Positions 13,739 to 37,998 of a stretch of 64,000 bases of DNA are shown one piece after another. The stretch's first letter is position 1. Every line of letters starts with the position of its first letter. Origin of the DNA: Paenibacillus sp. UNC451MF (GTDB lineage Bacteria > Bacillota > Bacilli > Paenibacillales > NBRC-103111); contig NZ_JMLS01000018.1 in assembly GCF_000686845.1 (NCBI RefSeq), forward strand, positions 124,001 to 188,000. Direction: 5' to 3'. The notes beneath the pieces were generated by a model, which saw only the letters and a list, made by a program, of their open reading frames with translations, was not told where the DNA came from and made no database searches. Position numbers and translations under genes: made by a program.

Positions 13739-13777
13739 ACACAGCATGCAAACTTTCTATCGAAAGTTTTTAGGAGG
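13735..13777 (+). promoter_or_regulatory. Ribosome-site-proximal hairpin before proS
   Basis: AAACTTTC (13750-13757) pairs perfectly with GAAAGTTT (13762-13769) around a TATC loop; the next bases are TTAGGAGG, the proS ribosome site. A weak copy of the upstream heptamer seen elsewhere (GTTTACA, 13735-13741) precedes it. The same CTTTC-TATC-GAAAG hairpin occurs before dapG, and the same architecture before pnp. Confidence 0.7.
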
Positions 13778-13788
13778 AGAAGCACTAC

Positions 13789-15237
13789 ATGTCCAAAGAT
13801 AAACAGTTTGTAAAGGAGATCACGCCTCAAAGCGAGGATTTCTCCAGATGGTACATCGATGTCATCAAGAAAGCGGATTTAATGAGCTACTCTCCTGTTC
13901 GTGGATGTATTGTATTTAAACCGGATAGCTATGAAATCTGGGAGAATATCCAACGCGAATTGGATGCCAGATTCAAAGAAACAGGTCACCGCAATGCGTA
14001 TTTTCCTATTTTCATCCCAGAGAGCTTTTTTCAAAAAGAGAAAGAGCATGTCGAGGGCTTTAATCCTGAACTCCCGTGGGTAACTGAGGCAGGCGGAGAA
14101 AAGCTCGAAGAGCGTCTTGCCATCCGTCCTACATCGGAGACTATGATTGGTCACATGTACTCGGAGTGGATTAACTCTTATCGTGATCTTCCGCTGCTGA
14201 TCAATCAATGGGCTAACGTTGTTCGTTGGGAGAAACGGACGCAGCCATTCCTACGGACAAGTGAGTTTTTGTGGCAGGAAGGCCACACGGCACATGAAGA
14301 CGAAGCGGATGCACGTCGCGAAACGATGCAAATGCTTGAAACGTATCGTGATTTTGCCGAGAACTTCCTTGCTATTCCGGTTATCGTTGGGCAGAAGACC
14401 CCGTCGGAGAAGTTTGCTGGTGCTGTGGACACCTATTCTATCGAAGCGATGATGAAGGACGGCAAAGCAGTTCAAGCCGGAACCTCTCACTACTTGGGTA
14501 CCAACTTTGCAGTGGCGTTCGATATTAAATACTTGGATCGTGAAAATCAGCATACATTTTGCCATACGACTTCGTGGGGCGTAAGTACACGTCTTATCGG
14601 AGCCTTGATTATGGTGCACGGTGACGACAGAGGATTGGCTTTACCTCCTAAAGTTGCTCCTACACAGGTTATTATGATTCCAATCGGCCCTCCTAAAACG
14701 AGAGAGCAAGTCGTTGGACGTGTGGACGAATTATATGCTCAACTGAAGCAAGCTGGCGTTCGCGTAAAAGTGGATGATCGTCCGGATCAAAGCCCAGGCT
14801 GGAAGTTCAATGAATATGAAATGCGCGGCGTACCCATTCGTGTAGAACTGGGACCTCGTGATATGGAAAACGGACAAGTCGTTCTTGTTTCGCGAATTTC
14901 CGGGGAAAAACGCGTGGTTCAGCAGGATCATTTTGTCGAAGAAGTGCAAAATATGCTGGCAGAAATTCATCAACAAATGTATGATAGAGCTAAGCAGTTC
15001 CGTGACGAGAATTTCACTTCGGTTGATAGTCTGGATGAATTCCAATCGTTCCTAGAGCAAAAACGCGGCTTTGCCCTTGCAGGATGGTGCGGGTCGGATG
15101 CATGTGAAGCTCAGGTTAAGGAAGAAACAGGCGCTACAAGCCGCAATATCCCGTTTGAGCCGGGTGAGCATAAGACAACGTGTATAGCTTGTGGAGAAGC
15201 GGCTAAACATACCGTAGTATTTGGTAGAGCGTATTAA
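13789..15237 (+). CDS. proS: Prolyl-tRNA synthetase, archaeal/eukaryotic-type
   Basis: A 482-residue class II synthetase. Motif 2 region (RWEKRTQPFLRTSEFLWQEG) and motif 3 are present. It lacks the large insertion (editing) domain of the usual ~565-residue bacterial enzyme and has the archaeal-type C-terminal zinc-like domain: Cys434, Cys439, Cys465 and Cys468, with the chain ending in the typical terminal Tyr. So the canonical proS locus holds the other class of enzyme. No T-box leader is visible; instead a hairpin abuts the ribosome site. Separate Pro-tRNA editing would be needed elsewhere. Confidence 0.94.
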   Translation: MSKDKQFVKEITPQSEDFSRWYIDVIKKADLMSYSPVRGCIVFKPDSYEIWENIQRELDARFKETGHRNAYFPIFIPESFFQKEKEHVEGFNPELPWVTEAGGEKLEERLAIRPTSETMIGHMYSEWINSYRDLPLLINQWANVVRWEKRTQPFLRTSEFLWQEGHTAHEDEADARRETMQMLETYRDFAENFLAIPVIVGQKTPSEKFAGAVDTYSIEAMMKDGKAVQAGTSHYLGTNFAVAFDIKYLDRENQHTFCHTTSWGVSTRLIGALIMVHGDDRGLALPPKVAPTQVIMIPIGPPKTREQVVGRVDELYAQLKQAGVRVKVDDRPDQSPGWKFNEYEMRGVPIRVELGPRDMENGQVVLVSRISGEKRVVQQDHFVEEVQNMLAEIHQQMYDRAKQFRDENFTSVDSLDEFQSFLEQKRGFALAGWCGSDACEAQVKEETGATSRNIPFEPGEHKTTCIACGEAAKHTVVFGRAY

Positions 15238-28757: not shown

Positions 28758-28839
28758 GCAGCGTGTAGGAAGAAAGTTTCTTGGTTAAACAGAAGCTATC
28801 GCTTACGTAGAAAGTTTCTTAGCAGAAACTCTTAGGAGG
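28758..28839 (+). repeat. Two 38-nt tandem hairpin units ending in the pnp ribosome site
   Basis: Unit 1 (28758-28795) and unit 2 (28796-28833) share AGAAAGTTTCTT at the same offset. Unit 1 forms a 7-bp stem (28775-28781 with 28791-28797, one wobble, 9-base loop). Unit 2 forms AGTTTCT/AGAAACT (28813-28819 with 28824-28830) around a TAGC tetraloop, directly followed by CTTAGGAGG. GCTTACG (28801-28807) stands 5 bases before the second stem. Period, spacing and junction match the dapG leader exactly. Confidence 0.75.
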
Positions 28840-35532: not shown

Positions 35533-36573
35533 ATGTCGAGTCAAAAATTATTCAACGTTGCGGTAGTTGGAGCAACAGGAGCAGTAGGAGAACAGATCAT
35601 TCGTTTGTTAGAAGAACGAAATTTCCCTATTCAAGAACTCAAGCTATTATCTTCGTCTCGTTCCGCTGGAACAAAATTGAACTTTAAGGGTCAAGAGGTT
35701 ACTGTTCAAGAAGCAACTCCAGATAGCTTTAAAGGAATTGATATCGCCCTGTTCAGTGCTGGGGGAAGTGTGAGTCTTGAATTGATTCCGGAAGCTATTA
35801 AACATGGAGTGGTTTGTATCGATAATACAAGCGCGTACCGTATGGATTCGGAAACTCCTCTGGTCGTACCAGAAGTTAATATTGATAAAATCAACGAACA
35901 CAAAGGGGTTATTGCTAACCCTAACTGCTCCACGATTCAAATGGTTGCAGCTCTTAAACCGTTGTACGATCGTTATGGCATTTCCCGTATCATAGTTTCC
36001 ACTTATCAAGCGGTTTCTGGTGCTGGAGCGCGAGCTATTGATGAAATGCTGCGTCAATCCAAAGAGGTTTTGGCTGGAAACCCAGTTGAACCGCAAATTT
36101 TGCCGGTGGGTGCATTGCCGGTTAAACATCAAATCGCATTTAATGCGATTCCGCAAATTGATAAGTTTACAGAAAATGGATTCACTTATGAAGAAATGAA
36201 AATGATCAACGAAACGAAAAAAATTATGGGCGATGAGTCGCTGGAAGTTACGGCTACTTGCGTACGCATTCCTGTAGTTTATGGACATTCTGAATCGGTT
36301 TATGTCGAATTGAAAGAAGATTTCGACATTGAGGAAGCAAAACAGCTGATCGCTGATGCTCCAGGAATCGTTCTTCAGGATAACCCAGCAGAACAACAAT
36401 ATCCTCTTGCTGCGGATGCTGCAGGAAAGCTAGAAACATTCGTTGGTCGTGTACGCCGCGATTTAAGCAATCCACGTGCCTTGAATATGTGGATCGTTTC
36501 CGACAATCTGCTAAAAGGCGCTGCATGGAATGCTGTGCAAATCGCAGAATATATCGCTATCGAGCAGAAGTAA
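35533..36573 (+). CDS. asd: Aspartate-semialdehyde dehydrogenase
   Basis: A 346-residue Asd that reduces aspartyl phosphate to the semialdehyde, a branch point for lysine, diaminopimelate, threonine and methionine. NADP fold VVGATGAVGEQIIRLL is near residue 11 and the active-site Cys132 in NPNCSTIQM is intact. A GGGGAGAG ribosome site precedes the ATG. The gene ends at a terminator, so dapG has a separate leader. Confidence 0.96.
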   Translation: MSSQKLFNVAVVGATGAVGEQIIRLLEERNFPIQELKLLSSSRSAGTKLNFKGQEVTVQEATPDSFKGIDIALFSAGGSVSLELIPEAIKHGVVCIDNTSAYRMDSETPLVVPEVNIDKINEHKGVIANPNCSTIQMVAALKPLYDRYGISRIIVSTYQAVSGAGARAIDEMLRQSKEVLAGNPVEPQILPVGALPVKHQIAFNAIPQIDKFTENGFTYEEMKMINETKKIMGDESLEVTATCVRIPVVYGHSESVYVELKEDFDIEEAKQLIADAPGIVLQDNPAEQQYPLAADAAGKLETFVGRVRRDLSNPRALNMWIVSDNLLKGAAWNAVQIAEYIAIEQK

Positions 36574-36579
36574 TAAAGC

Positions 36580-36612
36580 AGGCTTCCAAACGGAAGCCTA
36601 GCTTTTCTTTTA
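36580..36612 (+). terminator. Intrinsic terminator after asd
   Basis: AGGCTTCC (36580-36587) and GGAAGCCT (36592-36599) pair perfectly around AAAC, followed by AGCTTTTCTTTT. It splits the dpa-asd unit from dapG-dapA. Confidence 0.85.
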
Positions 36613-36640: not shown

Positions 36641-36775
36641 GCTTACGAGAGAAGGCTGTTGACTTCCCTTTGGGAGTGGAATGAAAGCTTGCATTATGCT
36701 AACGAAGATGGCTTTCTATCGAAAGCTCAGTATATGCTTACGAAGATAGCTTTCTATCGAAAGCTCTTAGGAGGG
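36641..36775 (+). repeat. Tandem hairpin leader ending in the dapG ribosome site
   Basis: Two 38-nt units (36693-36730 and 36731-36768) match at 32 of 38 positions. Each has GCTWACG (36698-36704, 36736-36742) and a GCTTTC/GAAAGC hairpin around TATC. The second stem (36748-36754 with 36759-36765) runs straight into CTTAGGAGG. A third GCTTACG is at 36641-36647, within ACAGC/GCTGT. Spacing from heptamer to stem is 5 bases, as before pnp. Confidence 0.8.
36681..36749 (+). CDS. Possible 22-residue leader peptide before dapG
   Basis: ATG 36681 opens a 22-codon frame (MKACIMLTKMAFYRKLSICL then RR) that spans both hairpin units and stops at TAG 36747-36749, inside the second stem. GGGAG at 36672-36676 is 4 bases upstream, rather close. 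The 38-nt period is not a multiple of three, so the repeat was not kept as protein. It may be chance; translation here would disturb the hairpins. Confidence 0.2.
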   Translation: MKACIMLTKMAFYRKLSICLRR

Positions 36776-36780
36776 ACCTC

Positions 36781-37998
36781 ATGAAAATTCTGGTTCAGAA
36801 ATTCGGAGGCACGTCCCTTTCCAACGTCGAAGCAAGAGCACTCGTCCTAGAACATATTGAAGAAGCCTTAGCACAAGAATACAAGCTAGTAGTCGTCGTA
36901 TCGGCAATGGGGAGAAAAGGCGAGCCTTATGCTACAGATACTTTGATTGATTTTATTAATCAGAATGGCAACCATTTGCCGCCACGCGAAAAAGATATGC
37001 TCCTTTGCTGCGGAGAAATTATATCAGCGGCAACCCTATGCAGCTTGCTTCGTGCAAAAGGAATCCCCGCCAGCGCACTTACGGGAGCACAAGCAGGAAT
37101 AACAACGAATAACGATTTTGGCAATGCCCAGATCTTATCCATTCAGCCTACGCGTATTTTAGAGTTGTTAGAAGGCGGGCAAGTTGTCATAGTAACAGGA
37201 TTTCAAGGCCAAACCAAGACGCATGATTATACAACCTTGGGCAGAGGCGGCAGTGACACGACCGCAACAGCGCTAGGCGCGGCATTAAAAGCGGAAATTG
37301 TTGATATATTTACCGATGTAGATGGAATATTAACGGCAGATCCCCGCATTGTAGAAGATGCCAGACGTCTTTCTATTGTTTCCTACTCGGAAATATGCAA
37401 TATGGCTCATCATGGAGCCAAGGTGATTCATCCAAGAGCGGTTGAAGTGGCCATGAATGCCAGTATCCCGATTCGGGTTCGTTCTACATTCAGTAAAGAC
37501 TTGGGAACTTTAGTTACCCACTCTGATGCGATTGAGCACAGTAGAGATGCTATTCAAGACCGTTTCGTAACGGGAATAGCGAGCTTTTCGAGCACTTCGC
37601 AAATACAAGTGGCTGCGGGCGATGGGGTTTACGATTTACAGCTGCAAGTTTTTAAAGCAATGGCTCAACAGCATATTAGTGTTGACTTCATCAATGTGAA
37701 TCCATCCGGAGTCGTTTATACAGTTTATGACCATGAACTGGACAGAGCAGTCCATATTTTAAATGAGCTTGGATATAAGCCGCAATGTACTTCCAATTGT
37801 GCCAAAGTCTCTATAATCGGCGGAGGAATGAATGGTGTGCCGGGGATAATGGCGCAAATTGTCGAAGCGTTGACGGAAGAAGATATAAGCATTTTGCAAT
37901 CAGCGGATTCCAATACGACCATATGGGTGCTTGTTCAAGGTATCGATATGGTGAGAGCGGTCCGTGCATTACACAGAAAATTTGAATTACATCGATAA
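36781..37998 (+). CDS. dapG: Aspartokinase I (diaminopimelate-type)
   Basis: A 405-residue aspartokinase starting the aspartate pathway. KFGGTSLSNVEAR is at residue 7, the catalytic domain has GRGGSDTTATALGAAL near residue 158 and TDVDGILTADPR near residue 178. Two ACT regulatory domains fill the C-terminus (about 260-405). It starts at ATG with AGGAGG 6 bases upstream. Adjacent to dpaA/dpaB and dapA, it corresponds to DapG of B. subtilis, which is inhibited by diaminopimelate. No lysine riboswitch is seen. Confidence 0.94.
   Translation: MKILVQKFGGTSLSNVEARALVLEHIEEALAQEYKLVVVVSAMGRKGEPYATDTLIDFINQNGNHLPPREKDMLLCCGEIISAATLCSLLRAKGIPASALTGAQAGITTNNDFGNAQILSIQPTRILELLEGGQVVIVTGFQGQTKTHDYTTLGRGGSDTTATALGAALKAEIVDIFTDVDGILTADPRIVEDARRLSIVSYSEICNMAHHGAKVIHPRAVEVAMNASIPIRVRSTFSKDLGTLVTHSDAIEHSRDAIQDRFVTGIASFSSTSQIQVAAGDGVYDLQLQVFKAMAQQHISVDFINVNPSGVVYTVYDHELDRAVHILNELGYKPQCTSNCAKVSIIGGGMNGVPGIMAQIVEALTEEDISILQSADSNTTIWVLVQGIDMVRAVRALHRKFELHR

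Follow-up and report, generated by a model that had tools for sequence, protein, structure and literature searches.

Introduction

In Bacillus mRNA, Stab-SD elements and 5′ hairpin stabilizers place a barrier right before the ribosome site that stops 5′-to-3′ decay, and in chloroplast mRNAs the PPR10 footprint is a protein barrier against such decay that also frees the Shine-Dalgarno (SD) sequence. Neither represents a shared repeat family with a tag and a hairpin, and the PPR10 site is a protein footprint. REP sequences, which go with a RAYT (Y1) transposase, combine a palindrome with a conserved 5′ tag at high copy number, and these palindromes stand in both orientations relative to genes. 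The module described here differs from REP/RAYT in that its own genome holds no Y1 transposase, it occurs in one orientation only, and it is fused to SDs.

As described in parts of PMC11780869, the cggR-gapA and glnRA sites of Bacillus subtilis lie between operon genes and resemble the module in having a G/A step upstream and a hairpin at the 5′ edge of the downstream cistron, with an RNase Y cut followed by a stabilizing 5′ hairpin. Each of these sites is individual in sequence, whereas the present module repeats one tag, one geometry, and one SD joint dozens of times per genome and also occurs at 5S rRNA. The cip-cel stem-loops of Ruminiclostridium cellulolyticum are likewise intergenic and set the processing and stability of transcript parts. 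They differ in occupying six loci of one operon, with cuts mostly downstream of or at the 3′ end of the stem-loop, and the abstract reports no common tag fused to an SD (PMC10311766, in part). BOX, RUP, and ERIC resemble the module in being short, dispersed, structured, and sometimes located inside operons; BOX holds a variable number of internal units, and ERIC can trigger transcript cleavage (sections of PMC3049150). According to the same sections, BOX and RUP are over-represented between converging genes, in contrast to a module found in sense and at an SD-like stretch in 67 of 73 arrays. Among dispersed hairpins, the module is set apart by this rigid joint to SD sites and to the 5S end.

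The earlier note on this DNA considered the element possibly undescribed, which agrees with our searches: no Rfam 15 family matches at the element, and we found no description of the module among the matches listed from the open-licence PubMed Central literature. Within the window, Rfam 15 gave no match at the gathering score. A permissive search of eight copy-bearing loci returned a single weak miRNA-family match (25.4 bits, gathering score 66), which lies on the opposite strand just before a unit (L189, 721-772, unit at 796), and the matches of a further Rfam search were rRNA, tRNA, and one c-di-AMP riboswitch, none at the element. Among the matches listed for the tag letters in the open-licence literature, the titles concern unrelated work. 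The main text of a Paenibacillus riograndensis transcriptome study contains neither the tag nor the word "hairpin" (PMC5670726), and the main texts of a stem-loop family survey (PMC2267715) and a REP survey (PMC12306157) do not mention Paenibacillus.

Results and Discussion

The window is the whole stretch of DNA analyzed, 64,000 nucleotides from Paenibacillus sp. UNC451MF. The features discussed below are as follows.

13750..13777, + strand: hairpin (13750-13769) AAACTTTC-TATC-GAAAGTTT running into TTAGGAGG, without the heptamer; precedes a 482-aa ORF at 13789
28801..28839, + strand: single unit before pnp, GCTTACGTAG-AA-stem AGTTTCT/AGAAACT with loop TAGC, then CTTAGGAGG; 23.9 bits
28845, + strand: start ATG of the pnp gene (TIGR03591)
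36641..36647, + strand: lone GCTTACG heptamer that lacks a matching hairpin; filters off, it scores 7.3 bits
36698..36735, + strand: unit 1 of the dapG array, with GCTAACG tag, spacer AAGAT, stem GGCTTTC/GAAAGCT, TATC loop, and linker CAGTATAT; 24.3 bits
36736..36765, + strand: core of unit 2, the terminal unit of the dapG array, with GCTTACG tag, spacer AAGAT, and TATC loop; 37.0 bits
36748-36754 and 36759-36765, + strand: stem arms of unit 2, AGCTTTC and GAAAGCT
36766..36774, + strand: junction CTTAGGAGG of the dapG array, CTTA followed by the SD GGAGG
36781..37998, + strand: aspartate kinase gene dapG (NCBIfam NF006068, E 2e-179), ATG at 36781

Two 38-nt units stand head to tail before dapG, at 36698-36735 and 36736-36773, as the earlier note had it. 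Their identity is 30 of 38 positions on recounting, not the 32 first claimed, and 29 of 31 in the core. The anatomy described for both units holds: GCTWACG, a spacer of five bases, and a stem capped by TATC, which on our count is 7 bp long. The direct joint of the last stem to the SD through CTTAGGAGG, ahead of ATG 36781, holds as well. The element had been started at 36641, where the heptamer lacks a matching hairpin and is not itself a unit; it is perhaps a decayed one. A claimed copy before pnp was found (28801-28830, then CTTAGGAGG); the same site before pnp is occupied in the genome G011 (L109), and L110 has an equal-score match at a like position. For the claimed hairpin before an ORF labeled proS, the hairpin and TTAGGAGG are there, but the heptamer is absent and the 31-nt covariance model finds no match at 13750, which makes it at most a partial copy of the module. 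With filters off, the two dapG units and the pnp unit head the window scan (37.0, 24.3, and 23.9 bits), and the next best candidate reaches 11.7 bits. Separately, a terminator-like hairpin with a T-rich tail is visible by eye at 36578-36612, 5′ of the dapG array and 3′ of an ORF ending at 36573, which we take from its place to be asd; dapG would thus be transcribed by read-through or from its own promoter.

When the dapG leader was used as a DNA query, the own genome returned 36 matches. Fifteen units from those loci went into R1, a covariance model that spans 31 positions with 8 pairs, ends at the stem, and is free of the SD. R1 finds at least 123 matches at E ≤ 1 in the own genome (among the best 150 of 5557 candidates scored), and these group into at least 73 arrays of 1-5 units each. 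In 67 of the 73 arrays, the 3′ arm runs straight into an SD-like stretch and a start codon on the same strand, three of these being judged by eye rather than by script (C38:31542 and C32:1845, with short ORFs, and C19:108461, argH with the SD AAAGGGG). Over the nine bases that follow the stem, 24 arrays carry CTTAGGAGG, 19 carry CTAAGGAGG, and 4 carry TTTAGGAGG; in a few others the SD is weak, for example CTTAGGACG and CTGAGGTGA. The six arrays not at an SD comprise two cut-off pieces, the two strands of one palindrome, and two longer leaders. By eye, the two pieces (C9:107416 and C21:112652) lie roughly 180-220 nt 5′ of another array, from which an inserted GTGGGGTA...TACCCCAC repeat has apparently split them; the palindrome (C1:9132-9168), matched on both strands, has no proper tag; and the longer leaders (C7:62052, with a dnaJ-like gene downstream, and C34:38545) contain a GTCGYTCATC-like segment.

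Recurrence of the module is far beyond chance, as the earlier note had argued. The pattern GCTTACGANG-N16-32-CTWAGGAG, which does not require a hairpin, has 38 matches genome-wide (21 on one strand, 17 on the other), while its reversed version has none in the own genome. In 846 kb chosen around copies, GCTTACGANG occurs 67 times against about 6 expected from base composition; seven scrambled versions occur 2-12 times in the same sequence. The proposed covariance-model search thus yields many copies, mostly directly at SD-like stretches, with compensatory stem changes, and the opposite pattern, i.e., random places and orientations with no covariation, was looked for and is absent in the own genome.

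Each unit is built from the near-invariant tag GCUUACGANG, a hairpin of 7-9 bp whose sequence varies, two free bases between them, and a 3′ end resembling CUUAG. Of 52 units parsed, 39 have five bases between tag and stem, a few of these being chance matches. The offset from stem to AGGAGG is three bases in 59 of the 65 own arrays that were counted, and the dapG junction shows it as well; the spacing between AGGAG and the start codon ranges from 6 to 14. Among 38 distinct pattern sites aligned on an 8-bp stem, pairing holds in 93.7% of stem cells; double changes amount to 40 cells and affect 6 of 8 pairs. The covariation score was reached by 0 of 500 shuffles, with slid structures scoring 0.06-0.12 versus 0.39. 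In the AAG/CUU extension below the stem, covariation was found in 0 of 3 pairs.

Comparison with the relative G011 gave 42 arrays before orthologous genes among the arrays fetched from both genomes; as these sites were picked for holding the module in both, they give no loss rate. When all 42 terminal stems were recounted over 7 outer pairs in a fixed frame, breaks included, 274 of the 294 cells were the same, 15 had changed on both sides and were still paired, 1 had changed on one side and was still paired, and 4 had changed to or from unpaired. Judged from these alignments, stem pairing is maintained, the compensatory changes indicating upkeep. By eye, orthologous arrays also differ in unit number (1 versus 5, 3 versus 6), and at several sites the units have swapped places, so arrays turn over while the SD joint is kept; unit exchange within arrays may explain part of the stem differences. 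Folding of whole leaders is no evidence either way, since the 101-nt dapG leader has a z of −1.5 and its two units pair together. Single cores give a median z of −2.0, with 33 of 65 below −2.

The module is not confined to ribosome sites. G011 has 82 arrays, 57 of them within the stretches fetched, and 47 passed a scripted SD and ORF test. The ten others are argH (SD AAAGGGG), rpmJ (a short ORF, by eye), a TTTAGGAGG site at 7512150 whose start is unclear, two arrays of the GTCGYTCATC type, and five located between 23S and 5S in rRNA operons. Four of these operons were checked against the Rfam 5S model, and in each one CTTAG ends exactly at its position 1; the fifth has identical junction letters. 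These 5S copies have two different stem sequences, and at 5S sites the tag is kept and the SD is absent. A 5S query of 20 genomes, own included, matched in 17 and gave 30 loci. The sequence upstream of 5S could be read at 26 of them (a contig end truncates 3, and the pattern missed 1). Three of the 26 carry the module, one each in G006, G008, and G009, and each of these genomes also holds a module-free 5S copy. A module ending at 5S position 1 cannot be purely translational, and of the earlier suggestions these copies favor the one that it may block 5′ RNases.

As for the genes behind the SD-linked arrays, 20 of the 67 were hand-chosen and checked with NCBIfam, mostly as N-terminal parts, for which reason some matches fall below the whole-protein cut-off. 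They are aspartate kinase (dapG), pnp, ruvB, guaA, argH, argR/ahrC, nusB, panD, mraY, atpC (epsilon), rplX, rpoC, scpA, accC, mtnN, nadK, ku, remA, recJ, and fur. The set has no obvious common pathway, as expected of a gene-neutral module. A same-strand upstream gene precedes 47 of the 52 arrays judged (of the 73, 18 fall outside the long stretches and 3 were wrongly placed within an ORF), compared with 511 of 649 genes of the same stretches. A strong preference for operon interiors is therefore unsupported, and such positions are at most mildly favored.

Taken at somewhat less than even confidence, our preferred reading is that of a portable cis-acting RNA module of Paenibacillales that would shield the 5′ boundary of the RNA behind it, a boundary perhaps made by cleavage. 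The covarying stem, the single orientation, and the fixed joint point to the transcript as the working form, and the 5S copies together with the pathway-neutral genes suggest a general job at an RNA 5′ boundary. The module would act as RNA within the transcript, with its terminal unit set at a fixed distance from what must work downstream; the terminal joint is nearly always to an SD (hairpin-CUWA-GGAGG) and sometimes to the first nucleotide of 5S rRNA. The hairpin would form a barrier at which 5′-to-3′ decay stops before reaching the ribosome site or 5S, and it would also halt structure reading in from upstream. The tag would serve as a landing or cleavage site for a putative factor, either an RNase Y-type endonuclease or an RNA-binding protein, and arrays would grow and shrink through tandem duplication. 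By sequence layout, a G/A step lies in the tag region five bases 5′ of the stem. RNase Y of B. subtilis prefers a G/A step, and in cggR-gapA the cggR hairpin that follows the cut shields the product against RNase J1 (PMC11780869). From this precedent and the G/A step here, our best reading is a barrier whose tag may hold a site of cleavage or binding.

Several observations count against such a barrier. The RNase Y consensus is weak (PMC11780869), whereas the tag of the module is near-invariant. Operon interiors are hardly enriched, the SD behind the module is predicted to be somewhat more paired than at controls, which a pure protector would not need, and site conservation is poor. In f10, another family of the order, 4 of 19 picked sites fall within a longer repeat that is not at start codons.

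In a second reading, the module would be a tamed mobile repeat: a small selfish element that spread and persists only at places where its 3′ end can take over the sequence just ahead of an SD or 5S without harm, any function being incidental. At dapG, 5 of 80 named relatives have an R1 match to the module (L109, L110, L111, L114, and L115); it looks decayed by eye in L112 and L113, and the other relatives have no R1 match before dapG at E ≤ 0.1. The dapG copy thus cannot be essential. Among 40 genomes (own and relatives), 28 have matches at E ≤ 0.01, and counts per genome range from 0 to 169; of twelve other genomes of the same genus, eleven have 48-169 and one has 2. Across the order Paenibacillales, at least 186 of 246 genomes have a match at E ≤ 1e-4, many with few (best 29 candidates per genome). 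A class-wide draw of 250 genomes gave 22 with matches, all except one in the own order; the sole outsider, G278, has a copy (L208) that by eye precedes an ABC-type ATPase.

That module sites differ between species fits a mobile repeat, as do the filled and empty 5S sites within one genome and an SD site filled in G011 and empty in the own genome. Where filled and empty sites could be compared (5S and one SD site; few cases, by eye), the old flank was replaced and no target duplication was seen; at the filled 5S sites of G008 and G009, this replacement covers the final 7-8 bases of that flank. The f10 core within a longer dispersed repeat points the same way. Twenty sites were picked by score and for long-loop forms, 19 from f10 plus G278; 16 stand at an SD-like stretch and 4, all from f10, in the longer repeat (L195 in G047, L199 and L200 in G033, and L201 in G069). 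On the other side, no clear copy at a neutral position, for example where converging genes end, occurs among the 73 own arrays, and the compensatory stem changes speak for upkeep of the pairing. The Y1 transposase (PF01797) is missing from the own genome and from 11 of 16 others, high-copy genomes included, and is present in G013, which has no module matches; reverse transcriptase is absent from the own genome, G011, and G010. Mobility by either enzyme is rejected, as neither co-distributes with the module, and a phage origin is likewise rejected, one strict pattern having 0 matches in viral contigs. The earlier suggestion of a co-opted small repeat thus fits the gain and loss of sites but lacks an accompanying Y1 transposase. 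We consider a tamed mobile repeat unlikely overall, though a serious contender.

A third reading is a translation switch, in which the tag GCUUACGAAG would pair weakly with CUUAGGAGG around the hairpin and mask the SD until a factor, temperature, or ligand opens it. The predicted probability of an unpaired SD is 0.356 at 90 element SDs (own and G011) versus 0.461 at 264 control SDs from own stretches only (Mann-Whitney p 5e-4), and with the hairpin enforced in 71 units it is 0.488 versus 0.611 when the pre-stem bases are shuffled. The exact spacing from stem to SD also fits masking. However, the folding effect is modest, the AAG/CUU extension does not covary in any of its 3 pairs, the tag is retained at SD-less 5S sites, and unrelated housekeeping genes downstream make one common signal unlikely. 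The control of ribosome access proposed earlier thus has weak support from folding. By function, SD masking is the chief rival, and we regard a switch as unlikely. A transcription element (attenuator, pause, or terminator) is highly improbable: there is a strong leader hairpin, and the terminator-like hairpin lies just 5′ of the dapG array, but no T-run follows the module, the next bases being CTTAGGAGG, CTAAGGAGG, or TTTAGGAGG in 47 of 73 own arrays, so that an intrinsic terminator or attenuator is rejected, the terminator on the ground that the earlier note had already given.

Returning to the 5′-boundary shield, a bolder version would make the module a new kind of device, gene-neutral and self-spreading, an order-wide standard part at SD and 5S starts with a placing mechanism and a dedicated putative tag-binding factor; we hold this to be possible but rather unlikely. 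What it targets in spreading may be the 5′ ends of RNA and not sites in DNA, and a repeat found almost only at RNA beginnings, with no matching transposase, raises the question of how it spreads. If the shield is upheld, about 1% of the bacterium's genes (73 arrays; the gene total is a guess based on genome size) would be steered by one hairpin module that annotation missed. It would then provide a ready-made part to set mRNA stability or translation in Paenibacillus, and the filled and empty orthologous sites with 1-6 tandem units would amount to a natural experiment in which expression data could reveal dose and function. The 5S copies tie mRNA leaders, unexpectedly, to rRNA maturation.

Several further structures accompany the module. 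The longer dispersed repeat of f10 has two roughly complementary ends like GTCCCCAGATTTC and GAAATCCGGGGAC and does not lie at start codons. Some f10 loops hold inserts of about 25-30 nt; large-loop units, with ~25-30 extra bases in the apical loop, occur at L192, L193, L196, L202, and L205, some in tandem and joined to TTTTAGGAG. A small inverted repeat, GTGGGGTATNCCC ... ATACCCCAC, seems to have been inserted near 10117-10145 of L082 and near 10253-10275 of L078, splitting module arrays. Finally, a tag and hairpin followed by a GTCGYTCATC-like segment and a second possible hairpin recur at L091 9953-9984 (C7:62052), L101 9946-9977, L209 (G011:2480471), and L230 (G011:6438171), with no Rfam match at L091, L101, or L230. 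This leader, possibly a separate structured RNA, precedes a dnaJ-like gene in both the own genome and G011 and stands at two other places.
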